Source of the DNA: Haematococcus lacustris
Taxonomy: Eukaryota > Chlorophyta > Chlorophyceae > Chlamydomonadales > Haematococcaceae
NCBI GenBank assembly: GCA_030144725.1
Contig: JASKMD010000005.1
Span: forward strand, 2,287,476-2,351,475
Length of the DNA stretch: 64,000 nt
Direction: 5' to 3'
Each line of letters opens with the position of its first letter. Positions within the stretch are counted from its first letter, which is position 1. Shown here one piece after another: positions 1,069-60,469 of the stretch. The notes under the pieces were generated by a model. It searched no databases. It saw only the letters and a list, made by a program, of their open reading frames with translations, and was not told the DNA's origin. Position numbers and translations under genes: made by a program.

Positions 1069-3077
1069 TCAGGCGCCCCCAACATGGGGTTGGTGATATG
1101 CATGCGATTACTTCCTCAATACTGCACCGTTCTCGATAGCGTTTATCACATTGGCATCGGAGGTTTAGTCCGCGTTATCTGACCATCAGCGCTAGCCATT
1201 GGAGTCTTTGCTCGCGTACTGCCACATGTGCCCGCGAACAAATCACATCGGCGAGACGGGTCTCCTTGGCACGGTGAGCCACATCGCTGTGACCCCATCT
1301 ACCTAGCGTAGTAAGCTGGTTGTGCACAAATGGAATGTCCGGCCGACACCCAACGCGATGCCTGCCGGGCGTGCAGGGCACCTGGACGGGGCAACTAAAA
1401 CATCTGGTTGTATTCGCTTCCGCCGAATACATCATTTCGGTCGGCGCACACTAAGGTATCACCGGCTTACACCCCCCCCTCCTCCACTGTGTCCACCACT
1501 GTGTTGCACCCGTTGCACCTATAGGGAAATCGATACAAAGACCTTGTTCTTGACCCATTGGCCCATCTATTGAAACAAATTGCACATCAAACAGCCCAGG
1601 CCTCAATCAGTTTAACACTTTCAAAGTTACATCATGTTCACCAGGCAGGTTCAAGGCCACGGCATGCAACGACCCAGCATGCCCGCCCCCCCTCCACCCA
1701 TCATTGCAGGAGCCCACCTCATCAAGCCTGCCCACCCCCTCCCAGCCCACCCCTCCCAGCCCAACCCCGCCCAGTCCACCCCCTCCCAGCCCAACCACTC
1801 CCAGCCCACCCCTCCAATCCCAACCCCTCCCAGCCTTCCCATCCGCTCCCTTGCTCGCTGCCTGCTCCCCTTCCCCTCCCCCGCCCCCTCCCAGCCCTAG
1901 GCACCACCATGAGGGGTAAGAGGCTTAGCAAGAAGAAGCGCCAACACCTGCAAGAGCTGAATGCCTCACCCAAGGCAGGATTTAAGTGTTGCCCCAATGG
2001 CTTAAAAGCTCAGAAGAAGAAGGCACAGGTGGAGGCCATGAAATTGCGGGCACAGGTTGAGCAGCTCCACCAGCAGCTCGGTGATGCGGTGGCAGATTAT
2101 CAGCTGCTGCAGGCAGACATGGAGCAGCTGCAGGCAGCACACCAAGAGGTGCAGGGTGAGAATGAGTCATTGGAGCAGCTGGCTGAGGAGCGCACCCATG
2201 CAATCCAGATGCTGCAGCAAGACAAGCGCCGGCTGTCCCTTGCGCTACGCAACGTCCGCCGCTGCCGTGTAAGCGGCCCCCGGCTCACCCGGCATCAGCG
2301 GCAGCTAATGAACATCCTGATGCGGCACCAGGTGTCACCAGAGGTGCTGCAGCGGTGTGCTGAGGGTGGCTATGGCATCCCGTCAGGCACTGCAGCCCAG
2401 CAGCCCTGCCCATCTCCTGACCCACCCGCGTTCACCACCAACTTCATTCCCACGCAAGTGGGGCGCTGTGGGAAGCCTGCAGCCAGGACAGCGGCATACC
2501 TCGCACAACACTACCTCAGCACAGCCAGGCTGGTGCTGCAGACACAGGTCAGCCACCGCAAGCTGGAGGAGTACTACACACAGCACTGCAAACGGCAGCT
2601 GGACATGCCACACCTCATGGCTGCGCTTGGGGGGTCAGACCCGCAGTCGTGCAAGGAGGTAGCCGCCAAGGTGGTGAAGTGTGTCGCCCTGCTCATGAAT
2701 GACGGGCAGACTGACCTGGGCGTGTGGGACCCCCACTCCACGTGGCACCAGTTCTCACAGGACATCCAGGCCATGGCTGAGGGCAGCCCATGCAGCACCA
2801 GGTTGCGCCTCCACCTCGAGGTGTACTTTCTGGCATGTCCCACCTCCTGGGCAGAGCACCACTGTAAGGCTGCTTGCTGTGTAGGGGGGGTTGTGGTGAA
2901 TGTGGGGGACCATGCAAGCCAGCAGCGGGTGGCAGCAGCAGCAGCGGCAGCAGGGTGCAGCCAAGTTTGCCGCCAGGTGCCAGGTGTGCCGCCTCCACAA
3001 CCCCCCCTGCCCCCACAGCCGGCGGTATTCAGAGAGTAGAGCCATTTTTGAATTTTTTGAATGTTGGGGGCGCCTGA
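1069..3077 (+). mobile_element. DNA transposon with inverted ends and 7-bp target duplication
   Basis: The left end starts TCAGGCGCCCCCAACAT at 1069, and the right end carries the same 17 bases inverted, finishing at 3077. Outside both ends stands TGCAGAG (1062-1068 and 3078-3084), a perfect 7-base direct repeat read as the target-site duplication. Beyond the first 17 bases similarity is patchy, but a CTCTGAATACCGC-like block recurs near both ends. The 2.0-kb element encloses one long ORF encoding a basic, coiled-coil protein. The superfamily is not assigned: 7-8 bp duplications fit hAT, P or KDZ-type elements, and no DDE catalytic domain was recognised. Confidence 0.65.
1909..3039 (+). CDS. 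Coiled-coil protein carried by DNA transposon
   Basis: The open frame extends upstream to 1558, but that part is a Pro/Ser-rich low-complexity run. ATG 1909, in an ACCACCATG context, starts a better-composed protein of about 376 residues. Its N-terminus is very basic (RGKRLSKKKRQHLQ), possibly a nuclear signal. Residues about 45-125 form a strong heptad coiled coil rich in Gln, Glu and Leu. An Ala/Cys-rich middle with several Cys and His follows, then a Pro-rich tail. No family is recognised. It lies wholly within a transposon with inverted ends, so I infer an element-encoded accessory or DNA-binding protein. Splicing near the 3' end is possible: around 2940-3060 another frame reads a Cys-x2-Cys segment (RCQVC) that could be an alternative C-terminus. 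Confidence 0.55.
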   Translation: MRGKRLSKKKRQHLQELNASPKAGFKCCPNGLKAQKKKAQVEAMKLRAQVEQLHQQLGDAVADYQLLQADMEQLQAAHQEVQGENESLEQLAEERTHAIQMLQQDKRRLSLALRNVRRCRVSGPRLTRHQRQLMNILMRHQVSPEVLQRCAEGGYGIPSGTAAQQPCPSPDPPAFTTNFIPTQVGRCGKPAARTAAYLAQHYLSTARLVLQTQVSHRKLEEYYTQHCKRQLDMPHLMAALGGSDPQSCKEVAAKVVKCVALLMNDGQTDLGVWDPHSTWHQFSQDIQAMAEGSPCSTRLRLHLEVYFLACPTSWAEHHCKAACCVGGVVVNVGDHASQQRVAAAAAAAGCSQVCRQVPGVPPPQPPLPPQPAVFRE

Positions 3078-3248: not shown

Positions 3249-3332
3249 AATGTGACAAACGCTATTGAAAACGATGCGGTATTCAGAGAGTAGTTGCATG
3301 AACATTACTAACCCCATGTTGGGGCGGCCTGA
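3249..3332 (-). repeat. Second inverted copy of the transposon end
   Basis: Read on the minus strand, 3332 down to 3249 aligns over about 85 bases with 1069-1153, from the terminal TCAGGC..CCCCAACATGGGGTT to the ATAGCGTTT.TCACATT block. It matches the left end better than the right end at 3077 does, but has no matching target duplication. It is probably the terminus of an older, related insertion. Confidence 0.7.
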
Positions 3333-3717
3333 CTATGACTCTATATGCATGTGAATGTTATGATGAATTTTTTTTGCATGGAGCGACTAGACTATCTCTA
3401 TTCTAGTCAAAAATAGTACTATTTCGACTAGTACTATATCTAGTCTATTTATAGTCTATTTTACGAACCTTACTAAGCATAGCCCCCTACGAAACATGGA
3501 ACAAGGTGTTGCCTGTGGGTAATCCTCCACGGCTCTCCTTGTGAACTAGTACGTGCGTACAGGGGCTACCTGGCAGTGTGACGACTGAGCTTCGCCCAGG
3601 AGCTGACCAGGACCTGGGAGCTGAGGATGGCTGGGGTGGAGCATGGCTTCGAGGTTGGGAGGAGGTTGACCTTATACCGATGATGCCGGCTGTTCTAGGT
3701 TATCACACAACCGTATA
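3333..3717. other. AT-rich flank without gene
   Basis: No coding potential seen. The stretch at 3385-3460 is built of CTAGTC/ATAGTACTA words that echo 490-555 in inverted orientation. The rest is ordinary. Confidence 0.5.
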
Positions 3718-4361: not shown

Positions 4362-4803
4362 GGACCTTTTTCTGAAACAACGCCAAATTCAAAGATTATT
4401 TGAACGTTCTTATGAAGTTTGCCGGGATTGGGCAGCAGCTCAGCGACCGCCAACAGCACTACGTGCCTCGTTGAAGTGCGCTTCAGGTTCGGGGCCACCA
4501 AGGAGGCGTTGAGGCGCAGTAGCTTGCGCACACACTTTTTTAAGTTACTCGATTTATCTACGAGCAAGGGTCCTTCGGTGCCCACGTGCGGGGGTCCTCG
4601 TAGATAATCAAAGTAATTACAAGTAACTCAAAAAAGTGTGTGCGCAAGCTACTGCGCCTCAACGCCTCCTTGGTGGCCCCGAATCTGAAGCGCACTTCGA
4701 CGTAGCACGTAGTGCAGTTGGCGGTCGCTAAACTGCTGCCCAACCCCATTTCATAAGAAGGTTCAAATAATCTTTGAATTTAACGTGTTTTCAGAAAAAG
4801 GTC
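4362..4803. repeat. Large inverted repeat, about 200-bp arms
   Basis: Arm 4362-4564 is matched in reverse complement by 4598-4803 with scattered mismatches, around a 33-base loop containing CACGTG. The arms include CTACGAG/CTCGTAG at the loop and GGACCTTTTTCTGAAA at the outer edge. It is the central fold of the hAT-like element. Confidence 0.85.
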
Positions 4804-4908
4804 CTGTATTTCCTGTATCGATACACGTATTACCCATCACTGCCCACGTGTCACGGGAAACCCAAGTTGCTTGCAAAGGCCACCGCCCGTCTTAATGCGC
4901 ATCGCGTG

Positions 4909-7900
4909 ATGGCTAAGGGCCCGAGAAAGAAACAGAAAGGTGCGTGTCCCCAGCCGACTGTGAGCTCCGCTCCCGACCCGTCGTGTGATAACCCGTCGCT
5001 CCTGTTGCTACCATCACAGCGTCTCGTTCCCCTCAAAGCAAGCAACGACAAGAGCGTCGGGATGGCTGGACCACGCGCAGACGTCCGGTGGCGCCCCCGC
5101 CTTATGTGTCCCCGCACTCTTTGTGTTGACCCCGCCTTTTGTCTTGGCCTGTCAAAATGGCAACTTTGCTTTGCTGCAGGTCATCAAGGTCCCCGAGGGC
5201 GCTGTGCTGCGCGGCTGCAAGAAGACCAGGCGCAAGCTGCGGGAGCACCTCCGGCTGCGGGCTGAAATCCACTCCCAGCTCCGCGTGATCGCGTCGTTGC
5301 TGGTGCTCAGAATCTTCCTAACGTGCCTGGTGGGCTACCCTACCCTGGGCTTCCCCAGCGCCCCTTAGCCTCCAGCCGTGCAGCCCCCCCAACACCCTGA
5401 TGCTCCCCCCCTACCCCCCCTACCCCCACGTGCCCCTGCCCAGCCTGCCCCTGCCCAGCCTGCCCCTGCCCAGCCTGCCAGCATGGAGTGTGACACTGAC
5501 TCTGACTCCGAGTCAGATTATGACTCTGAGCCAGAGCCACAGTCTGACTCGGAGTCAGAACCTGAGCCAGAACCTGAGCCAGTCACGCAGCCCCCCCTAA
5601 GGCGCTGCAGCGCCCGCCTGGCAGCCCTTGCACCTGCAGCACCCACTGGCCCTCCCTTGCCCCTTGACTGCGAGGACCCAGCGATGCTGAGGCAGCTGAA
5701 AGACTTCTGCATGTTCTTTGCCAACCCAAACTTCAAGACAGTCTACAACCAGCTGCAGCGGCGCCTTGTACGCAACCGCCACCCCATGCTCATGCCAGCC
5801 TTTGAGGACCCCAGCAACCAGGCGCTGCTGGCCAAGCTGCAAGAGCTGGGCAGCATCAACCTGGCGGGTGACGCCAACACCATCAACGCACACTCCATGC
5901 AGCTGGCGGTGGCCATGCAGCAGCATTACTCCAAACCAGGCAAGCGATGGTGGTGACTTGACCCTGGATTTGGACCTGGACCTGTACCTGTACCTGTACC
6001 TGTACCTGTACCTGTACCTGTACCTGTACCTGTACCTGTACCTGTACCTGTACCTGTACCTGTACCTGTACCTGTACCTGTACCTGTACCTGTACCTGTA
6101 CCTGTACCTGTACCTGTACCTGTACCTGTACCTGTACCTGTACCTGTACCTGTACCTGTACCTGTACCTGTACCTGTACCTGTACCTGTACCTGTACCTG
6201 TACCTGTACCTGTACCTGTACCTGTACCTGTACCTGTACCTGTACCTGTACCTGTACCTGTACCTGTACCTGACCTGACCTGACCTGACCTGACCTGACC
6301 TGACCTGACCTGACCTGACCTGACCTGACCTGACCTGACCTGACCTGACCTGACCTGACCTGACCTGTACCTGACCTTATACCTGCAGAGCGCTTTGTCA
6401 AGCTGTACGCCAAGGCAGCCAGGGCCAAGCTAGGCTGGAGTGGCGAGGAGGCGCAGCTGTTCATCAGGATGGCGTGCGGGTATGGCATTGACGCCAAGAG
6501 CTCGGAGCTGAAGGCCGCCACCCTGGACAAGGGGCATGTGGCGGACCTGATAGAGGAGGCCAACACGCACCGCCGCCTACTGGGCATGAAGAAGCAAGGC
6601 TCCCTGCAGGACACCCTGCCCCTGCCCTGCCGCATGCGCCATGCAGTGCATGTGTGCTGGTGGCTAGAGCGGTGGCAGCAGCCCCCCACCCTACCCGCAC
6701 CAGGGCAGCCAAAGCGCGGCAAGAGGCGTGGGGTTGGTCCCCGGGTTCTGACCTGTCCACCCCCCCTTTACCCTCACTCCCATGGCCAGGGTGGGGGTGC
6801 ACTTCATCAAGGTGGACACCAGGGTACTGCATGGGGTGTGCAAGCAGCTGGGCCTAACCAAGGAAACCCGGGCAGCATTCACCTCAGAGTCAGCACTGAG
6901 CAATCACTGGGTCAGGTGGCCCTCCTCCAGCCCCACCCCCAGCTGCCAGCAGCAGCAGCACCAGCAGCCGCCCAAGGGCAGCAGCAGCAGCGGCCCATAA
7001 ACTGGGACTCCCCCACATAGGCAGGGGCATAGCTGAGATGCGTGAGTTTGTGTTTGACCCAGACACCCAGATTGGGGTGGGCATCGACCTTGGCGTCACC
7101 CAGGCAGTCAGCGCAGCCTCTGGGGTGTGGGATCCGCAGTCAGGCCAGCTGATGGCAGACCAGCTGCGCCGGTGGAAGCTGACCAAGGGCCAGGTGAAGC
7201 ATGCCAACGGCCTGAACAATGCCCGCCGTGACACAGTGCGGTGGCTAGCACCCATCAAGCCCCACCTCCAGCACCTGGCAGCAGCAAGCTCAGCCGGCAC
7301 CTCCCTGGAGGCCAACCTGAAGCAGATCACCGTCACCCTGGCCACCTGGGATGCGGTGTGGGAGGTGTACCTGGACCCCAAGTGGTCACGGCAGCGGCTG
7401 AGGCTGTACAGAGCCCAAGACCGGGCGCTGGAGCAGTTCTTCAACAAGGTGAGGGTGGGTGGGTGGGTAGGTGTGTGGGAGGGAGGGTAAGGCACTGGGA
7501 TGATATGAAGGAGTACTTGATTGTGCCATGCCTAACCGTGTGCTACCATGTCAGCCACCATGTGTGTGCCTTGTGTGCATGGCTGCAGCTGGAGGAGGAG
7601 GTGGCGGAGTTGGCCATGAAGCGACATGGGCGTGCCAAGCAGCTGGTGGTGTTCTTTGGCGCTGCTACCATTGGCACTGGGGGTGGGTGGGGTGCTGATG
7701 CGGTGCTGCGTGCCTGCCGCAAGGTGGTGTGCAGGCCCAAGGGCGCAGGCCAGCGGCAGGGCAGGGTGGTGCTAGTGGATGAGCACCGCACCAGCCGGGT
7801 CAGCTCAGCAGTGAATGGCAAGCAGCCCTGTGAGGAGGAGCTGGACAAACTCAGTGCCACCAGGCCTGCAGGCTGGAAGCCACCAGCAGGGCAGGTGGAA

Positions 7901-8365
7901 CCCCGCCTGGTGCGCCCAGCCTGGAGCCAGGAGCGTGGCCAGCCAGTGCGGGGCCTGATGTGGTGCCCTGTAGTGGCCCCCCGCAAGCCCCCACGGGCCC
8001 CACGCAGCAGCCAGGCAGCCACACAGCCAGCAGCCTCGGAGCCAGGGCCCAGCACTCCCCCTCCAGCCAAGCGCACCAAGGCTGAGCCGGCAGCTGAGCC
8101 CACTAAGGGCAAAGGCAAAGGCAAGGCAGCCAAGGCCAAGCCAGCACCACAGCCAGGCAGGTGGCTGGACAGGGACTGCAATGCAGCGCTGAACATGCAG
8201 CGCATTGGGGAGAGCAGGTGGCGGCCGCTGGAGCTGTGCTACTGGCCAGACCAGGGAGCTCTGCCAGCCAAGGGCAAGGAATACCCCGGCCTGGGCTACA
8301 AGCGGCTGAGAGACAAGCCTCAAGAGGCCCAGCAGCAGCAGCAGCAGCCTGCTGTGGCACAGTAA
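4909..8365 (+). CDS. Fanzor (eukaryotic TnpB-like) RNA-guided nuclease, near complete
   Basis: Multi-exon gene. Tentative first exons are at 4909-4939 (basic MAKGPRKKQK) and 5182-5300. The Pro/Asp/Glu-rich exon ends at 5939. Exon 6389 onward (ERFVKLYAKAARAKLGW) joins in phase through a 449-base intron with a GC donor, and a stretch near 6782-6900 reads VGVHFIKVDTRVLHG. The nuclease core is in exons 7038-7448 and 7589-8365. RuvC-I is GVGIDLGVTQAV (Asp codon 7086). RuvC-III is WLDRDCNAALNM (Asp codons 8168 and 8174). In place of the canonical RuvC-II glutamate stands VVFFGAATIG; a Glu lies in LVDEHRTSR (codon 7781), the rearranged position known in Fanzors. Cysteines expected after TSR are Ser, so the zinc ribbon looks degraded. 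The C-terminus is Pro/Lys/Gln-rich. Family identity is secure; splicing between 6600 and 7038 and guide-RNA function are not. Confidence 0.8.
5981..6366. repeat. Hexamer-to-pentamer microsatellite filling a Fanzor intron
   Basis: About 48 copies of TGTACC (5981-6270) run without break into about 19 copies of TGACC (6271-6366). The array occupies nearly all of the 449-base intron 5940-6388. The pentamer is the hexamer minus one T. Confidence 0.95.
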
Positions 8366-9148
8366 TGTGTGCCCCCTTTGTTGAGCTGTCATCAGCTTAC
8401 AATTAGTGCATGCAGGTCATGCCAACTCTACATCATAGCCCTCGGGTCAGGCAATAGTGTAGGTGGTAGGCGGGCTCATGTGCCATGTGCACTGGGTTTA
8501 CTCCACACAGCCCAATAACACTGTTTGAGTCGGGTCAGTTAGTGGCTGCTAGTGGCTGCTAGTGGCTGCTAGTAGGTACTACTGATCCGGTTCAAATGGA
8601 GGCCCTAGTGAGGGACAAGGGGGCTGCAGCCCGCACACGCACACTGGCTCACTCCGCTGGCCCCCTTTGCTCCCCTCCCTCTCCCCCTCCCCCCACCTGC
8701 CAGGTGCCTGGCGGTGGTAATGGTGGTGGCAGTGAGGGGCATGCAGGGCGCAGAGGTGCTGGTGCTGGTGCAGAGGTGTAGGGGTCATATTGCGTTGATG
8801 GTGATAGGTCATACTGTCAAGCACGCGGCAGTATGTGATGCTGCTTGCATTAGTGCATGCGTGATCCCACCCATGCATTGGGGTTGCCTGAAGGAGGTAT
8901 GTAAGGTGGCCTCGATGTAAAAGATACGGTGACACGATGCTCGTGCAGTGCTCGAGTGTAAGGACACTTCCTTTGGAGTGCGGGGCTGGCACTTGAAGGC
9001 CAAATGACCTTCGTAAGCTGCAACCCACAGAGCACGTCGATCTTGACCATGATGTGGCAGTTCTTGCACTGTATTTGGGTAAAGCATCAATCTCTTTGCC
9101 ATGTCGCCATTACCCATTTCCTAGCGCCATGGCACACGTTTGTGGGCG
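8366..9148. other. Intergenic region downstream of Fanzor
   Basis: No protein gene recognised. It contains three to four copies of a 10-base unit GTGGCTGCTA at about 8540-8575. In Fanzor and TnpB loci the guide RNA is usually made from the region at or after the 3' end of the ORF, so about 8300-8560 is where one would sit; no structure was established. Confidence 0.4.
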
Positions 9149-27073: not shown

Positions 27074-28010
27074 CTATTGCATGAGCAGGCGATCTCGTAG
27101 CCGCCGATTGCCCAGGTCTGGGTACTCCTTGCCCTTGGCGGGCAAATCAGGCCACCAGCACAGCTACAGCGGACGCCACTTGTTATCCACAGTGTGCTGC
27201 ATGTTCAATGCTGCACTGCATTCACGGTCTAACCACTGGCCTGGCTGCGGTGCTGTGGGGTTACGGTTAGGTTCTTTTCTTGGCAGCTTTGTCCCTGGCC
27301 TGGGCTATGCTCCTGGTGAGCTGGGTGAGCTTGGCTGCATGCTCAGCCTTAGTGTGCTTGGCTGGCGTGGGTGTCGTGGGTCCAGGCTCGGAAGCTGCCA
27401 GCTGTGTGGCTACCTGGCAAGTCACACTACTGACTGCATGCTGGACGGGAGCTGTCAATGATCAACCTGCCCTGTTAGGGGCTCCCAACCTGCGGGCCTG
27501 TGGGCTGCTCATGGTTCAGCTGCTCCTCAAACTGCAGCTGGCCATTCACTGCTGAGCTGACACATTTGGTATGGTTAGAGTTAGGGTTAGGGTCAGAGGC
27601 CAACCCCCCAAGTCATCTACCTGCACGTCATTGCCCCCACCGTACCCCTGGGCCCACACTACCTTGCAGCATGCCCGCAGCGCCGCATCCGCACCCCGGC
27701 CATCCCGGGTGCCGACACCATCTGGGCCATTGAAACCCACTAGCTTGCAGCGCGTGATGGACATCTCAGCCACCTCCTCCTCCCGCTGCAGACATGCACA
27801 TAGCCACGACCACAAGGCTGGACGTGGCACAACAATCAACGTGGGTCAGCGTTCAGCATGTCATGTTGTCCGCCACCCATCCTCCCCAACACTGCATGAC
27901 CCCGTTGGCAAGCAGCCATCTACCACCATGAAGAATTGCTGACTGCCGCTCCAACACCAGAACGACAGGTATGCCACCCTCCTAGCACCCATACCTTCTT
28001 ACTCCAGCTG
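27074..28010 (-). pseudogene. Fanzor relic 2 (C-terminal half)
   Basis: Read on the minus strand it collinearly matches the second core exon of the 4909-8365 gene. REEEVAEM (near 27787) corresponds to LEEEVAEL, then GRGADAALRACCKVV, a SSAVNG..FEEQL segment, AASEPGPTTPTPAKHTKAE, the RuvC-III region WLDRECSAALNMQ, and the tail LPAKGKEYPDLG. Lesions: the second RuvC-III acid is Glu instead of Asp, the Glu-His-Arg-Thr-Ser motif is replaced by a TTAGGG-type repeat, and stops lie within the linker and after KWRPL. Only a trace of the first core exon remains near 27990-28010. It is the first of three adjacent minus-strand relics. Confidence 0.75.
27573..27594 (-). repeat. Telomere-like TTAGGG patch
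   Basis: The plus strand reads GGTTAGAGTTAGGGTTAGGG, three to four TTAGGG-type units with one variant. It sits where Fanzor relic 2 should encode its Glu-His-Arg-Thr-Ser motif. Short enough to be chance. Confidence 0.6.
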
Positions 28011-28124
28011 CCAGCACTCCAGCCTGCCACCTGCGCACAACTTACATTGACCCTGGTATTTAACTAATACGACCTTCAGTTTCATGAGCTCTGTACAGCG
28101 CATTGTACCCCTACTAATGGGTAG

Positions 28125-29035
28125 GAGCTGCGTTATCTGTAATCCCAGCTGTGTGTCTGAGACAAACAGCTGCTCTGGGCCATGAAACACATGCTCTGGG
28201 CCTTGGGTGCTCGGTCTCATAGCTTCTTGTAGCCCAATGCTGGGTACTCCTTGCCCTTGGCAGGAGCCCCGCCTCACAGGGCTGGGGGCTGTACATAGCC
28301 GAGCTAACCCTGCTGGTGCGGAATTCATCCACAGTCACCACCTTGCCTGGAACCCTGTCTGTTGGCCTGCCGCTGTTGGCCCTCTCCACCACCTTGCAGC
28401 AGGCCTGCAGCACGACCTTGGCGCCCCACCCACCCCGGGTGCTAATGCCTGCGTTGTCAAAGAACACCACCAGCTGCTTGCGGGTCCCCCACCGCTTCTG
28501 GGACTCAATGGCTGCCTCCTCCTCCAGCTGCATGGCACACAAGGCACACAATGCGCATGGCATCCTTGGAAGGACTGGGGACATGGCACCTAGCAGGTCA
28601 CACGGCGGGGCAGTCATCATCATCTGGCCCTGCCCCTCGCCCCCTACCCTTAGCACTCTCACCTTCTTGAAGTAGCGCTCCAGGACCTTCTCCTGCGCGC
28701 TGTACAGCCTCATCTTCTGCTCTGCCCACTTGGGGGATACTCGAGTACCTGTATCCCCCCACACTGCATCCCAGGTGGCCAGGGTGACGGCCACATGCCG
28801 CTGGATGGCCACCAGGGAGGTGCCTGCTGGGGTGGCTGCTGCCAGATGCTGCAGCTCGAGCTTGACGTTGTCAATCCACCGCTGAGTGTTGCGGCGAGCC
28901 TGGATCAGGCCACTGTCATGCTGCACCTGTCTCCTGGTCAGCTTGGTCCTGTAGAAGTTTTGCAGACAGCCATCCTCATCCCACCCCCTGGAGCTGCGCC
29001 CTGAGCTCTGTACGTCCTGACTCACAGCCATGCCC
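28125..29035 (-). pseudogene. Fanzor relic 3, RuvC-III deleted
   Basis: On the minus strand the order is a damaged RuvC-I (GMAVSQDVQSSG, no Gly-Ile-Asp), YRTKLTRRQVQHDSGL, LQHLAAATPAGTS, TLATWDAVW and EKVLERYFKK. Then comes an intron at the same position as in the intact gene, then LEEEAAIESQKR, QLVVFFDNAGISTRGG and VVTVDEFRTSRVSSA. Here the rearranged Glu is preserved (DEFRTS). Immediately afterwards, near 28270-28290, the sequence jumps to the C-terminal tail APAKGKEYPALGYKKL, so the linker and the whole RuvC-III block are deleted. Within the remaining segments substitutions dominate and the frame is mostly open. Confidence 0.8.
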
Positions 29036-29040
29036 ACTGA

Positions 29041-29390
29041 ACGTCCAGGTACAGCTCCCACACTGCAATCCAGGTGGCGAGCGTGATGTCCTACAAGCTG
29101 GCCGCCAAGGAGGTGCTAGCTGTGCTGCCTGGTGCAGGAGGTGGGGCTAGATGTCCAGAGCTGGGTACTGCGGGGGCTAATGTTGAGTCCACTGCTCTGA
29201 CGCAACTGGCCATGGGTCGGTTTCCACCTGGCCAGCTTATCTGGCACTAGCGAGCCTCAGCCATCCCTCACCCCTGAGCTTGCTATGACCGCCTGGGTGG
29301 CGCTGGGGTCAATCCCATACCCAATCTGCAGCCGCACGCGTCTCAGCTAAACCACTGCCAACTGCGCTGGGTCGGCTTGGTGGCCTTCTT
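29041..29390 (-). pseudogene. Fanzor relic 4 (RuvC-I fragment)
   Basis: On the minus strand this is a collinear match to 7025-7380 of the intact gene: GYGIDPSATQAV (RuvC-I with its Asp kept), KLARWKPTHGQLRQSSGLN, then a segment matching TLATWDAVWELYLD. In-frame stops and small indels are present. It directly abuts relic 3, with no spacer between its truncated end and the beginning of the next copy. Confidence 0.75.
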
Positions 29391-53345: not shown

Positions 53346-54505
53346 TGTGAGACGGTCTGGGGCGCGAATCTCCGTGTAGCTCGTGACAAAGTTTTGACGC
53401 AGTCGGGTGTAACAGGCGTATGCGGCACCCAGCAGCCGCAAAACACTAGCTCAGATCGGCGCCCGCCCAAACCTGACCTGTGCCTTCCGCTCCTAAAAGA
53501 CTCACGCACATCATAAGGCGAGGCTAGCAATCCTTCTACGCACGCCGTAAGCCAACGGCACAAGTGCAGTACGCCTGCTTGCATGTCAGTGCATGGAGCA
53601 AATAATTCGTGAATATGCGCACAAGTCAGCCAGCTGGCACCCCTTACCTCACTGACGTTGCGGCATGACTCTATGCAAATGTAAGCTGCCTTATGACAGC
53701 GCTACATCATCACTTGGCAATATGTTGTCGGGATGGCTCGGGATGGCTCTGGCTTTCAGTGTTGCCTTTCCGTGGTGCCTCAACCCTCTTCCTCAACTTC
53801 AGCAGGCACATGTCACGCACTGGTCGCACCTCCTTGCTATAGCTAAAACTCACCACGGGACTGCTAAGCACTTTGCCTTGCTGCCTATGCCCCATGGTAC
53901 CAAATCAGGCTGGGCTGGGCTGGGCTGGGCGGGCTAAGCTAGGCTGGGCTGGGGTGGGCTGGGCTAGGCTAGGCTAGGCTGGGCTGGGGTGGGCTGGGCT
54001 GGGGTGGGCTGGGCTAGGCTAGGCTGGGGTGGGGTGGGGTGGGCTGGGGTGGGCTAGATTTAAGGGGGGAGGGGGGGGGTACCCTAACAACAAGGTGACA
54101 CAACACAACAACACACAACACAACACAACAACAACGTCCAGCTCCATGTCATGCCTTGCTGACTCTTTGCTACCTCCTGTAACGGCGAGCCTCGAGCGAC
54201 ACCGTTCCCCTTTGCCCGCGACACCTGTGTACTGCCTATGGCGGGCGCAGGTGGGCGCATTACTTTTACCGAGTGAGTAGGGCAGGTTAAAGCCTAGCAG
54301 CGCAAGCTGTGAGGATAACTGGTTCGATTCCAGGGGGCCCCGTTCTAAGCCCTAGCCCTCTCACGAGGTACTCTGTAACTCCGCTCCATGGCAGTTTCTT
54401 CGCAGTCACACGCTAGACGATTGCTCGGCTTATAGCGTGGTTCCGCACGTTACAGATGGTTTCCGACCAGACTAGCGTCTGACTGAGAAGTCTGTCCCTC
54501 AACAT
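53346..54505. other. Non-coding region before the retrotransposon
   Basis: No gene recognised. It includes the GGGCT-rich array and, at about 54280-54345, a segment with GGTTCGATTCC (perfect B box) preceded by a GCAGGTTAAAGC D-arm-like piece, which does not fold as a full tRNA. Confidence 0.5.
53908..54055. repeat. Degenerate GGGCT pentamer array
   Basis: Roughly thirty units of GGGCT with GGGGT and AGGCT variants. Longer blocks such as GGGCTGGGCTAGGCTAGGCT recur, showing secondary duplication of groups of units. Confidence 0.85.
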
Positions 54506-57500
54506 TTGGTCATGGTTCGCTATCAACGCATCCGCTACATACCAACTATTGAGGACTACCACGTCTCGATGGTCCATCAGATTCCTCTGACCCGCTGCGT
54601 CATCCTGAGCCTCCGCCAACGGCAAAGCGAAGAGCTCACACTCGTTGCCACGTACTGGCCCTCGGGGAACAACGACGACGCGCTCCCACTACGGAGGAAG
54701 ATGCAAGAGCATATACGAACAGCCACTGGGCACCTGCCCGGCTCACTCATCCTGGCGGGAGATATCAATGCCACAATGAAAACAGAGGATCGCTCCGAGC
54801 ACACCGAATACACACAAGACAACATGATGAGGGAGTTCGCAACAGAGATGCGCCTGTCCGAAGCTGATCCCGGCGACCGGGCCTGGACCTACCAACAACC
54901 GCACTGCAACAGCCGCATCGACGCCATACTGACGCGCGACGCAAGACACGGCTCTGTACACCGCACGCACGTCGACACGAACGCATATCTTAGCGACCAC
55001 AGACCACTCACCGCCACACTAAGTACAGCCCGACTGGGCATAGACCTGGCAGCCCCACAAAAACCTCAGAAGCACAGCCACACCATCCTTACCACCCCCA
55101 TTACCAATAAGGACAGGGAAGCCTACCGCCTGGCAGTGCAACAACCCAGCTCAGGTGCCCCACAACTGCACGCACACCTGACAACTTACCTTGCTCCCAT
55201 GTACACTGATGCTATCCACTTCCTGACCACGATTGACAAGGCCAACCCCCAACAACCACAGCGCCTAACGTTGGTAGCAGGCCTCCCAGCCAGGGAAGCT
55301 GTAGACACCGCAGCTACCATGCTCACAACCCTACTGCAAACCTGCAGGACGACAACTATCAAGACGTGCAATACTAAGACCCTAACAAGGGGGGGCCAAC
55401 ACTACCAACGCAGGACCATGTGTAGGATTAGACAGGCACTAGGCAAAAAGCTCAAAACCACCAGAGAACTCAGCCGGAAGGCTAGAGTGTTTTTCAAGCA
55501 AAACAACGTGCACCCAACCATCGATGAACTTATCCCAGAGACAGATACGACAAATGGGGAAACAAGGGAGGCGGTACAAGCGCGCCAGGGCGACGACACA
55601 ACCGAAAATCACGTGCAGGCCGCGCTCGCCCAGCTGACCAACTCGTACCGCGACCAAATTCACAAGCTAGACGACGACGACTCCGCACTCGCCATCGCCA
55701 AAGCCCGTGTCAGAATGCAACAACTAATAAGCACCCAGCCTAAGAAAGCGAACAAATACATCCTACGCCCGTCCCGCACCGATCACAAAGGCCTGCAGGC
55801 GCTAGCCGACCCCACCACCAACAAGATATGCACGGCCCCGGCCGACCTGAACCGGATAATTACCAAGGCCTACAGACAAAAGCTCACGCCGCCGACCCCC
55901 AAAACTGGCATATACACAAACACGCAGACTCGAAACTACCCGTGGGCCCGCGCCAAAGCGGACGACCCTTTCACGATGCACACCTGCCAAAACGTACATT
56001 GGCTACACACAGCCATCATGGACAAGGCAGGCTTCCAGGAATGCCTCAGCAGGCTGGCAGGAGGCAAGGCCCCGGGACCAGACGGCATTGAGAACGAGAT
56101 CATCAAGATGCTGCCGTGGGAGATGAGGGACACCATACACCAGCTGTTCATCATCATGTGGGCTACAGGCTGCACACCAACCACGTGGAAGACCAGTGAC
56201 ACATGCCTGCTCTACAAAGACAAAGGGCAAGAAACGGACCTTAACTCCTACAGGCCTGTGGGCCTAGCCAACACCGTCTACAAGCTGTGGACCAGCCTCA
56301 TAACTAAGATGCTTTCTGAGTATGCTGAAGCCAATGGGATGCTCAGCAAGAACCAAGCTGGGTTCCGCTCCCATAGGAACACTACACAACAGCTACAGAT
56401 GCTTGTCATGGCCCTTGAAGATGCTAAGCTGGCTAAGGCAGATATCTACGCGCTCCTGGTCGACTTCACCAGTGCGTTCAACACCACCTGCCAGGACAAA
56501 CTACTATGGATCATGCACGACCTAGGCTTCCCCACGGACGCGACGGACGCAGTGAAGGACCTATACACGGGCGCTACAACGCGCTTCAGAACTCCCTACG
56601 GCCCCACTGACCCGGTACCCGTGGACCGGGGCACCATCCAGGGCGACTCACTCTCACCCTTCCTGTTCCTCATCTATATCGAACCCCTACTGCGCTGGCT
56701 GCAGGTGGGCGCGAGGGGCTATAAATTCAAATCCGCGACGGCTGACAGCGGGGAACGCGCCACTGTCAGCAGCATTGACTATGCCGACGACATAGCAATC
56801 CTCTGCAACACACTCCGCAACCTCCGCTGCCAAGCGGACAAACTCTCAGCCTTCTCGGACTGGGGTCACCTCATCATCTCACACAGTAAAACCCTCGCAA
56901 CAGCGGCGCTCCATCACTCGATCGAAACCGGCATGTGCAGCAACGCGGCCGAAGCGGATAAGTGGGCCCGCCAACAACTCCAAACTGTAAGCTTACAAGG
57001 GAAACCCGTCACATACCACCGCCCGACCTCACCCTTCACCTACCTGGGTGTGCTCATCACCATGACGCTGGACTGGAAACCACAACACACCGCTATGATT
57101 ACCCAGCTACGCCAAAAACTAGAGAGACTCAGACGCTCCTTTGCTAGCGCTAGACAGGCCATACACATCATCCGCACGGCCATCATACCCAGTCTAGCCT
57201 ACAGCTTCTGCGCCGTGCCCTGCACCCCAGGGGACCTTGAGCTATATGACAGGTCCATTAATCAATGCGTTAAGCTTAAACTCAGACTCCCCCTGGGAAC
57301 GCCCAACGCCATTGTCAGAGAAGACGCCGGGAAACTAGGCATGGGCATCAGCTCCACAGCTCAGGAATACCACGCTCGCAACACAACAGCCCTCACACAA
57401 AGCCTCCAGTCCACAGATGTGACGCACGCCCACATCTCAAGGAGCATGCTACACAAGCAAATCACATGGCTCAATACCCTGGCCAACACTCAAGGACACC

Positions 57501-58321
57501 GCATGCTCACCCTCTTCCACCATACCCTCAGGGCACGGCAACTAGTCTATACCTCACTAGCCGGGCTGGCAGCCACGGAAGGGGGACTACCCCTCTACCC
57601 CGAGGAATGCCACACACTCGGCCGCCTCATCACGCAAGCCAACAGTTCTCATGCACACGACGTCGTCAGCGCCAGCATCACCTGCCTCAAAAGCCTAGGC
57701 ATTACTAACGCATGTGAGCTCAGCTGCGAGGGCAACACACACATCATCACGGGTAGCATGCTCACATCGAAATACGGGAAAAAGGTCAAACAGAAACACA
57801 TTATCGCCCTCAACAAACTTGCGGCCATGGCGGCCCAGCCCTCATGCCCTGACGCGACCGCAACGCGCACCATCCGGGACAGCCGCAACACATCACTCAC
57901 CCTACCGCCCGCCCAACGCAAAATCACACCCTGGGCCGCGGGTCTCACGGAACTTGCGCCCACACCCGCCGTGCCAGACACCAGAACCCGCTATATGGAT
58001 ATGAAAGCGTATGCGGCCCTGCAAGCAACGCAACCAGCAACGGCGGACCGGGCCGCAGCGGCACCCGCAGTCCATGATGCCACCAGGACGAGCTCACGAC
58101 TGCTGAAACGAGAGCAACGAGCAACACAACCGCCCCCGACGAAGCCCACTCTACCCAAGGCGGGCACGAAACGGAACAATGAGGGCAGACAGACCCAAAC
58201 TATCCCGCAGGATATAGTGCGCATAGTAGGCCTTGACCTCCCAGGACTCTCCAGCTGGAAGGTGGATAAAGCCTGCCGTTGTAAACCCAAGAACCTAGGC
58301 TGCATACTAGGGGCCATGTAG
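54506..58321 (+). pseudogene. Retrotransposon polyprotein part 1: APE endonuclease remnant and reverse transcriptase
   Basis: About 1270 residues open; the first codon is TTG, with an in-frame stop at 54473. APE motifs retained are LILAGDINATM, NSRIDAILTRD and LSDHRPLTATL; the N-terminal Asn and Glu motifs of the fold are missing, so the endonuclease is incomplete. RT motifs appear in order from about residue 520: GGKAPGPDGIENEIIK, LNSYRPVGLANTVYKL, LSKNQAGFRSHRNT, ALLVDFTSAFNTT, GTIQGDSLSPFLFLIYIEPL and the active-site YADD (near 56780). Thumb-like sequence continues to about 57300. The frame closes at TAG 58319-58321, but the same frame is open beyond, so this is a nonsense mutation or a readthrough stop, not a natural end. 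Confidence 0.85.
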
Positions 58322-60469
58322 GGCCACCAAGAGGCCATTACCAGCATAGATGGCTGGCAATGGGACGGCATCAACAAGGAAAACTACTACAAGGTGCATT
58401 GGAAGCCCACAGTCATAGATAGATGGGCATTACCACTATGTGCAGAAGAAGGCTATACACCCACACACATAGAGACCATCAGCAGGGAAGAGGCTAAGGA
58501 CGTGTGCACCTGTGAGCTGTGCTGGCTACCAAGAGGAGACAGCCCAACGTGCCACAACTGCAAGAGGGCCTACCACCCAGCCTGCCTTGAGGAAGCCCAC
58601 CTGTCAGGACACAAGGAACCAGGATACTGGCTGTGCCCTATATGCAAGTTCGGCAGCAATGACTTCAAGACTACCATGCGTCAGTCAGCGCACTCGGACC
58701 TCATACGAGTACACTGGCACCCCACTCTCGAACCGGCGCCGCTCATCACGGCACACCTGGACTACATAGCAAAGCGCAATGACTACGACGAGGAAAACAG
58801 GCAGATACAAGAGGCCAGACATGCGAGGCCCGACACGCACCTGCCGGCCCACACCCGACAGGGACTACCGGACCCGCACACCTGGCTACCCCGGTGCACC
58901 AACCTGCACTCGAAGGCCACCTTCCACACCTACCCCATCAACCCGCAGACGGACATCGTCGGGACGGGCAATTGCGAAACCTTCCTCCAACTTCACCCCC
59001 ACATGACCGACCCCGCGATGAGCCTCAGCACGGGGGAGCCCATTATGCCACGGCACGACTTAGTGCAACACGTAACGGTCCACGACGAGTCGGGTCGCAC
59101 AGCTGGCCTCCTGACAAAAGACAAACATCAACATCTACACGCTTGGTTACAACACACACCACACACACGCAACCTGGCCACAGAGGTAGTGGCCCTACTA
59201 AGGAGACAGGACGCACAGAGCAGCCACCACCCCATGAGAGGGGCACAAGACAAAGCCCTTAACACCCTACACGCCACACGCAGCTTTCCAAGTACCGTCC
59301 AAAGATGGGCTGATCCACTCACAGTTAGACCAGAAACCACCACCTATTGGAGCCCTGACATCAACGACACGGCCTTTGGGGCACACCACAACTGCCTACT
59401 GGTACGCCACACTGGCTTATCCACATGGAATGTACCGGCAGACGATGCAGTGGCACTGAAATGCGTCAACCATGCTATACACTCAGCTACACAGGAGGAG
59501 GCCATGGCAACCATCATGCTGATCCCTGGGAAAAAGGGCATCTCCTACCCTAAACACATTGACACCCTGCGGCGCTACCCTGAATACTGTCAGCACCTGG
59601 CTAGCATACCCCCCACCAAGACCAGATGCTCCAAGCCAGGCAAGCACGCCAACCTCCACATCTACGTCATCTGGAATGCAGCGGGGCAACAACTTGTCAC
59701 CAAAGGCAATCCCCAAGGATGGCTGGCTAGCACTGCCACTGCCCTCCACCCACAACGGGACACACACCCAATCCGCAACAGACCAACGAATCAAAGCCAA
59801 CCAGCCACACCCCCTAGCGGCCACAAACAACACATGCGCCTGCCGTTGGACAAGGACCTCCCCACCTCGGGGCACCAGCGCGGCCACCAACAACTCACGC
59901 ACCATTCCACGACGCAGCCACGGATGGCCATCACCGAATGGGCCACGCTCGCGTACACGGACGGCAGCTGCATTAAGACCTCGGGGGCAGCCCCAGCGAG
60001 CGTCGGGGCGGGGGTTTATATCCCGGAGACCAACGTCCTCATCACCGTCGCCCTGGACGACCCAGAAAGCAACACCATCAACAAAGCGGAACTCACGGCG
60101 ATACACGCGGCACTCACAGCGGGGGCCAAACGCATCGCCACCGACAGCCTCTGCTCTATCTACCAGATCCGCCGAGCCCTCGCTAACCCGATGTCGCTCA
60201 TCACACACAGGCACAACGACATCCTGACCGCAATCGCTACCCTCATCATCGATAGCCCCGTCACGATCCACTTCTACAAAGTCCGGGCCCACTCGGAATT
60301 ATCGGCAACGAAGGCGCCGATGCCCTCGCCAAGCACGCGGCGTTACACCCAGAGCTGGCCAACACCCCGGCCTACCGCCCGACCACACGGACAGAGACCA
60401 ACACCTGGCTCAACAACGAAGCCGATGGCAACACCCCCGCCCCACTGCCGCATTGCCGCCACAGCGTGA
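58322..60469 (+). pseudogene. Retrotransposon polyprotein part 2: PHD finger and RNase H
   Basis: In the same frame as part 1 after the TAG. Residues near 58510-58665 form a C4HC3 PHD-type finger: CTCELCWLP, CHNCKRAYHPACL, LCPIC. An unassigned 400-residue region follows. RNase H begins near 59955: AYTDGSCIKTSG (first Asp), KAELTAIHAAL (Glu), ATDSLCSIYQI (second Asp) and KVRAHS. At about 60295 one base is missing, so the frame leaves RNase H before its last catalytic Asp and ends in unrelated sequence at 60469. The Dualen cysteine protease was not identified in the unassigned region. PHD fingers in retrotransposons may target chromatin marks; that is inference here. Confidence 0.8.

Follow-up and report, generated by a model that had tools for sequence, protein, structure and literature searches.

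A Fanzor1-like element family without a C4 zinc ribbon in the green alga Haematococcus lacustris, described from a dead genomic copy

Introduction

In passages of Bao and Jurka 2013 (PMC3627910), a C4 zinc finger between RuvC-II and RuvC-III is part of the motif by which Fanzor proteins were originally recognised, and excerpts of a structural study (PMC10432273) report this zinc finger in both SpuFz1, the Fanzor1 of Spizellomyces punctatus (PDB 8gkh), and ISDra2 TnpB. Sections of Yoon et al. (PMC10711439) name TDG as the hallmark of Fanzor1 and DPG plus an alternative Glu as the Fanzor signature. The closest described elements are the Fanzor1 elements CRe-1, CRe-2 and CRe-3 of Chlamydomonas reinhardtii, which according to passages of PMC3627910 are 5'-truncated with intact 3' ends, consist of five exons in the case of CRe-1, and have target duplications, about 7-19 bp long, that immediately follow TTTT. 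Here, we analysed a stretch of 64,000 nucleotides from Haematococcus lacustris (contig JASKMD010000005.1, positions 2,287,476 to 2,351,475; hereafter the window), which carries one copy of a Fanzor1-like repeated element on the plus strand at 4851-8626, and compared it to other copies in the H. lacustris assembly (307.9 Mb, 597 contigs).

By analogy with these published excerpts, the Haematococcus element resembles CRe-1/2/3 with another target motif. Both are Fanzor1 elements of green algae, with five exons in CRe-1 and five inferred exons in the Haematococcus element; in both, copies often lack 5' or internal sequence but have a complete 3' end, duplications (9-14 nucleotides in Haematococcus) follow a fixed short motif, and some 5' ends have picked up additional sequence (for example L079 and L084 in Haematococcus). 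In contrast to the TTTT of CRe-1/2/3, the target motif in Haematococcus is GGCTG, which is also the end of the element, and the Haematococcus family lacks the C4 zinc finger. About 150 loci with duplications are given for CRe-1, whereas the Haematococcus family is far commoner, judged by first-look candidates.

Catalytic residues are conserved while the zinc ribbon is absent

The four motifs named in the original prediction, which was made from the DNA letters of the window, were all found at their coordinates: RuvC-I GIDLGVTQAV at 7080-7109 (catalytic Asp codon 7086-7088), VVFFGAATIG at 7646-7675, with Gly at the former place of the RuvC-II Glu, LVDEHRTSR at 7772-7798, with the relocated (alternative) Glu (codon 7781-7783), and RuvC-III DRDCNAALNM at 8168-8197 (catalytic Asp codon 8174-8176). 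Among the genomic copies, the RuvC-I Asp was kept in 32/32, the relocated Glu in 27/27 and the RuvC-III Asp in 29/30. The relocated Glu was present in all 125 aligned stretches, and its distance of seven residues to the first ribbon position equals that in mimivirus L79. The Gly at the old RuvC-II place turned out to be a family trait (113 of 123 aligned stretches). The consensus sequences of subfamilies A, B and C, which are identical at 371/397 positions between A and B and at 215/340 between A and C, agree at DPG, E..TS, RDCNAA, QPC and WC. In annotated protein P0131 and similar intact relatives, TDG, DPG, VDE[HF]RT[ST] with the relocated Glu, and RD.NAALN follow one another as they do in Fanzor1; P0230 of subfamily C reads SGT at the TDG-equivalent place. 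Of 329 fetched relatives, many of them partial gene models, 80 contained the ordered pattern TDG-DPG-E..T[ST]-RD.NAALN, which arose in none of 20,000 shuffles of P0131; a looser pattern from which TDG was dropped arose in 23 of the 20,000.

Ribbon cysteines are expected at +7 and +10 from the relocated Glu, by mimivirus L79. After TSR the window copy has no CxxC pair and carries Ser where Cys is expected, as had been noticed originally. At the first-CxxC place (VSSAVNGKQPC, 7799-7831) Ser and Val stand for Cys and a single Cys (QPC) is retained, and at the second (RGLMWCPVV, 7949-7975) the first Cys is retained and the second is gone. The same substitutions were found throughout the genomic copies, with Ser at +7 and Val at +10 in 28/28 each, QPC in 27/28, the first Cys of the second pair in 27/29 and Val in place of its second Cys in 29/29. 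The 228 listed relatives yielded 195 segments, none with CxxC at the ribbon position; the sole CxxC among them lay within the P0107 linker. An additional 101 proteins yielded 75 segments with a single CxxC, in P0232, more than 75 residues downstream. The more divergent subfamilies C and D are ribbonless in the same manner: C reads VDEFRTSRVSSA... and RGLMWCPQL/WL, and D reads HEFRTSRVSSA... and RGLMCSTS. Among the genomic loci of subfamily D, FRTSRVSSA or its variant FCTSRVSSA was read in 17/20 and CSTS in 14/20, and the second pair stands at the canonical distance from RD with its last Cys replaced by Ser.

Overall, the C4 zinc ribbon is gone in the examined members of subfamilies A, B, C and D, with one or two single Cys left, and its family-wide absence rules out a loss confined to the window copy. 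A Fanzor-like protein with the relocated Glu and without a C4 zinc ribbon, as originally proposed, is supported by the same counts (Glu 125/125; CxxC 0/195). By an alternative alignment with a six-residue insert, the QPC Cys could match the second ribbon Cys of the Parasitella parasitica Fanzor1, in which case half a metal site would be left. The original prediction had offered either a ribbonless lineage or early decay; the lineage is borne out by the family-wide absence, and decay is also present in the window copy but is a separate matter of a stop, a frameshift and a deletion (see below).

Shared changes among copies show purifying selection

The ratio of nonsynonymous to synonymous substitution rates (dN/dS), a comparison across copies that had been proposed along with the original prediction, was calculated from 32 genomic copies over 399 codons, with a change counted as shared if present in at least four copies. 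Shared changes (33 nonsynonymous, 53 synonymous) gave a dN/dS of 0.21 (bootstrap 0.14-0.33), and singletons (119 nonsynonymous, 109 synonymous, 8 stops) gave 0.36 (0.29-0.48), from copies that may include recent segmental duplicates and with transition and CpG bias left uncorrected. For exon 5 alone (four rows summed), shared changes were 30/40 (about 0.25) and single changes 97/69 (about 0.46). The shared changes among copies show purifying selection.

Fanzor signatures and published relatives

Membership of the family depends on the definition that is applied. By sequence, it would fall outside the strict 2013 motif, which includes the C4 zinc finger, and would be a member by the 2023 signature of DPG plus the alternative Glu; the Pro of DPG is present in 79 of 80 aligned stretches, but the window copy reads DLG. 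Similar to SpuFz1, the family has TDG (TDGASVS in SpuFz1) in the WED part and Asp-Pro at RuvC-I, and excerpts of PMC10432273 add a relocated Glu (E541) and an Asp before the C-terminal helix (D606) as further likenesses, while the DPN and CCCC zinc finger given there for SpuFz1 differ. Glu and Asp are spaced 65 residues apart in SpuFz1, compared to 79 for subfamily C and 129 for P0131.

The Parasitella Fanzor1 (9cf0) reads LIDEFRTSSFCPKC...HGLLRC, which parallels VDEFRTSRVSS...RGLMWC of subfamily C. The two have in common DEFRTS, which contains the relocated Glu, and GL..C in the second ribbon half; the Parasitella protein keeps FCPKC at the first pair, whereas subfamily C has VSS[AI]. The local similarity between the 9cf0 fragment and subfamily C had a z of 4.0 and was reached by 2 and 3 of 500 shuffles. 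With the TNB domain of TnpB/Cas12f (PF07282), the family shares RD.NAAxN at RuvC-III, but it is unmatched over the Cys part and differs in the relocated Glu and DPG. The match to PF07282 is confined to profile positions 47-60, which cover this RuvC-III motif. Five listed proteins (P0001, P0003, P0024, P0162 and P0188) bear a precomputed PF07282 label, and P0001, P0003 and P0024 contain tandem copies of the C-terminal part.

The window copy is a dead element copy

The inferred coding region of the window copy runs from an ATG at 4909 to a stop codon that ends at 8365. Exon limits, known from DNA alone, were inferred from relatives and GT-AG junctions, and place exon 1 at 4909-4939, exon 2 at 5020-5087, exon 3 at 5180-5867 (a basic N-terminal helix region with Pro-rich and acidic stretches), exon 4 at 6389-7448 (a REC-like part, a damaged WED-like part, RuvC-I and helices) and exon 5 at 7589-8365 (the RuvC-II part, the relocated Glu, the ribbon remnant, RuvC-III and a Gln-rich tail). 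Intron 3 contains an array of (ACCTGT)n and (ACCTG)n at 5974-6377, and an intron originally placed near 6730-6788 was rejected, as relatives continue in frame across that stretch. The acidic and Pro-rich N-terminus proved family-specific, as had been suspected; the Pro/Lys-rich linker at 7976-8155 occurs in subfamilies A and B and is missing from subfamily C.

The copy had been called near-complete, which did not hold. An in-frame TAG interrupts exon 3 at 5366-5368, where relatives stay open, comparison with relatives places a frameshift between 6765 and 6767, and a 98-nucleotide deletion at 6919/6920 takes out the TDG-bearing segment. At this last site, 98 nucleotides are carried by 17 of 20 other genomic copies and 100 by one, and two copies do not span it. 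The DLG at RuvC-I is private to the window copy, with Pro in 31 of 32 genomic copies. Because of the in-frame stop, the frameshift, the deletion that removes TDG, and DLG in place of DPG, the window copy is a dead copy of a Fanzor1-like element. The full-length relatives that were sought do exist in H. lacustris: P0131 (889 residues), P0132 and P0136 are open over 855-889 residues.

The window also contains older Fanzor copies on the minus strand, which are likewise broken. A ribbonless subfamily C copy (VDEFRTSRVSSAM) lies at about 28264-28944 and is flanked by A-like remnants at 29328-29002 and 27800-27093, so that within 27093-29328 a C-type copy appears to be nested inside an older A-like remnant.

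A fixed, structured 3' end and target duplications after GGCTG

Alignment of other genomic copies with the window ended at 8626-8642 in 18 of 20 and began at 4851 in 10 of 20, with later starts in the others; 5' truncation is common among the copies. The shared 3' end reads ...GAGGGACAAGGGGGCTG, and copies diverge beyond it. The element closes with GGCTG (8622-8626), and in other copies these five bases also stand just before the target duplication at the left end. Of 25 distinct 3' ends, 8 had their first 9-14 flanking nucleotides repeated upstream, in all eight cases directly after GGCTG, which has a frequency of 0.0046 in the window. The 9-nucleotide duplication of locus L096 was reached by 2 of 200 shuffles (10 of 200 under a looser control). 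For the window copy no target duplication was found, and a foldback adjoins its 5' side: at 4362-4804, directly 5' of the Fanzor element, inverted arms of 126 nucleotides (93%) and 55 nucleotides (91%) were observed, probably a separate non-autonomous insertion. Movement via spliced mRNA was rejected because the genomic copies retain their introns.

The last part of the element, 8508-8626, folds into a 3'-terminal multi-stem structure (z -5.48, reached by none of 200 shuffles), in which the terminal GGGCUG pairs with an upstream CAGCCC and encloses one long and one short hairpin, the TAGTGGCTGC repeats making up part of the 3' hairpin. An alignment of 26 distinct 3' ends gave -29.5, compared to -9.1 +/- 2.8 for column shuffles in which neighbours were not kept. 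The guide RNA had originally been sought at about 8300-8560, and this interval did not bear it out, as folding of 8300-8580 was not unusual (z -0.37) and the structured stretch is 8508-8626. Passages of PMC10711439 describe Fanzor1 guide RNAs as three-stem structures that include element ends, and passages of PMC3627910 describe hairpins at Helitron2 ends; by analogy, 8508-8626 could be of the guide-RNA type, and hence a candidate scaffold, or a terminal hairpin of the Helitron2 kind. The fixed structured 3' end, the 5'-truncated copies and the target duplications of 9-14 nucleotides after GGCTG are new.

Abundance of the family in the H. lacustris genome

An exon query of the genome returned 4,595 first-look candidates, of which 150 were scored, the window itself among them, and all of these 150 were 90-100% identical. 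Three protein searches gave 1,231, 573 and 452 matches (E <= 0.001) from 7,991, 7,996 and 1,364 scored candidates, and the best 120 relatives of each search were all named H. lacustris, a view of the best 120 behind which relatives from other species may be hidden. Subfamily D (loci L059-L078), in which an intron of its own separates the two ribbon halves, gave 214 matches from 2,992 first-look candidates and 150 scored. In one tandem array (G000:C476:7488414-7504967), six exon copies follow each other at a spacing of 3,225 bases.

Gene models in the H. lacustris annotation QJQ45 join pieces of several Fanzor copies and host genes; P0244 and P0275 are examples of fused models with other Pfam domains, and element sequence is present in many annotated genes. 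The H. lacustris gene count is inflated by the family, with 1,231 protein clusters that match one query compared to the 30,575 annotated genes mentioned in excerpts of the genome paper (PMC10400597). In the literature on Fanzor and Haematococcus, the one work found names the two in separate passages.

Discussion

We consider it probable that this locus represents a dead Fanzor1-like transposable element and that its working relatives encode RNA-guided nucleases whose lid lacks the ribbon, and we hold the anatomical part of this statement with more confidence than the whole. The Fanzor1 reading rests on a motif order beyond chance, conservation across the family, the published signatures, the match to 9cf0 and the parallels with the CRe elements. 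What the data show are the motifs, the absence of the ribbon across the family, selection on the shared changes, the element ends and the target preference; the guide RNA, GGCTG as a target-adjacent motif, cutting and movement in trans are inferred. Intact copies would express a five-exon nuclease, whose bound scaffold would be the folded 3' terminus of the element transcript (about 8508-8626), with flanking genomic DNA from 8627 on read as the guide. The RuvC-like Asp-Glu-Asp site would then cut guide-matched DNA beside a GGCTG-type motif, and such guided cutting would favour retention or copying of the element. The NUC lid may be held by protein contacts (the single Cys and a Trp-rich segment) and not by zinc, and movement is probably provided in trans through a one-ended mechanism of the Helitron type, in line with what has been proposed for the Chlamydomonas CRe-1/2/3 elements.

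Several results weigh against this reading or are neutral to it. Between the window copy and the older copy at 28944-28265, the ratio of nonsynonymous to synonymous differences per site (pN/pS) was 0.83 (0.63-1.10), which allows neutrality, and the copies used for dN/dS were chosen by exon 4 protein similarity, so that exon 4 is biased in that analysis. A search with a single sequence found PF07282 below the cut-off (E 0.024), and of 74 members, 45 gave weak matches to the domain, the best of them with an E of 0.00033. NCBIfam searches with six proteins and PDB searches by sequence or profile gave nothing relevant. Compared by hhalign to 26 viral TnpB-like open reading frames (ORFs), the family matched at RuvC-III only (E 0.0093, probability 4.4%; shuffled and reversed controls 0.59 and 0.089), and no viral relatives of A1, A2 or the D fragment were found. 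AlphaFold2 models reached a mean predicted local distance difference test score (pLDDT) of 30.3 for P0132 with 23 relatives and 47.2 for P0241 with 74 relatives, and Foldseek found no match to the second, low-confidence model in PDB or BFVD. Similarity to the 9cf0 fragment was weak for subfamilies A (z 2.2), B (0.9) and D (2.7). At the element ends, 17 of 25 3' ends gave no target duplication, though many left ends may lie beyond the fetched stretch, and covariation in the 3' structure was thin, with a double change in 2 of 32 pairs.

The loss of the ribbon might reflect decay only, with dying copies of a ribbon-bearing Fanzor whose consensus merely looks ribbonless. The window copy and two older copies in the window are broken, stops occur among the singletons (8/236), and the pN/pS of the window copy against the older C-type copy is indistinguishable from 1. 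However, independent decay would not fix identical residues, and the same Ser and Val are fixed in 28/28 genomic copies with the Glu kept in 27/27, while the ribbonless pattern is common to A/B, C (215/340 identical) and D, which retain DPG, Glu and RD where covered; together with the dN/dS of shared changes, this makes decay alone quite improbable. Somewhat less improbable, though still unlikely, is a Fanzor-derived transposon protein that no longer performs RNA-guided cutting and acts as a binding or repression factor only. Three of the four ribbon Cys are lost, in a lid that contacts the guide RNA in SpuFz1 according to passages of PMC10432273, and this loss could disable cutting, but the three catalytic residues conserved across the subfamilies would be unneeded for binding alone. 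The poor profile and structure results, none of them significant, would suit another RNase H-fold protein or an unrelated transposase with Fanzor-like motifs by chance; we regard this as very unlikely given the order TDG-DPG-Glu-TS-RGLxxC-RD.NAALN, seen in 0/20,000 shuffles, and the element-level parallels to the Chlamydomonas Fanzor1 elements.

Beyond the preferred reading of a nuclease family with a ribbonless lid, a more speculative and rather doubtful extension is that guide logic is coupled to insertion in this ribbonless Fanzor1 lineage. If GGCTG serves as target-adjacent motif as well as element end, each insertion behind GGCTG would supply a guide, namely the duplicated flank, that matches the empty allele beside its motif, and the nuclease would home the element into empty alleles; if true, this could drive spread to thousands of copies. 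A family with a selected catalytic triad but no ribbon would be a natural test of ribbon function, and the predicted GGCTG motif and 3' structure make guide and target testable. Searches based on CxxC-CxxC, such as the regular expressions in passages of PMC10711439, would miss the family.

Other features of the window

Upstream of the foldback, an inverted pair at 1057-1152 and 3249-3344 (79-81%) encloses an ORF of 504 residues at 1525-3039 and possibly represents the terminal repeats of another DNA transposon. Farther along, 54476-60469 contains two adjoining very long frames of 1281 and 715 residues with a strong AT skew.

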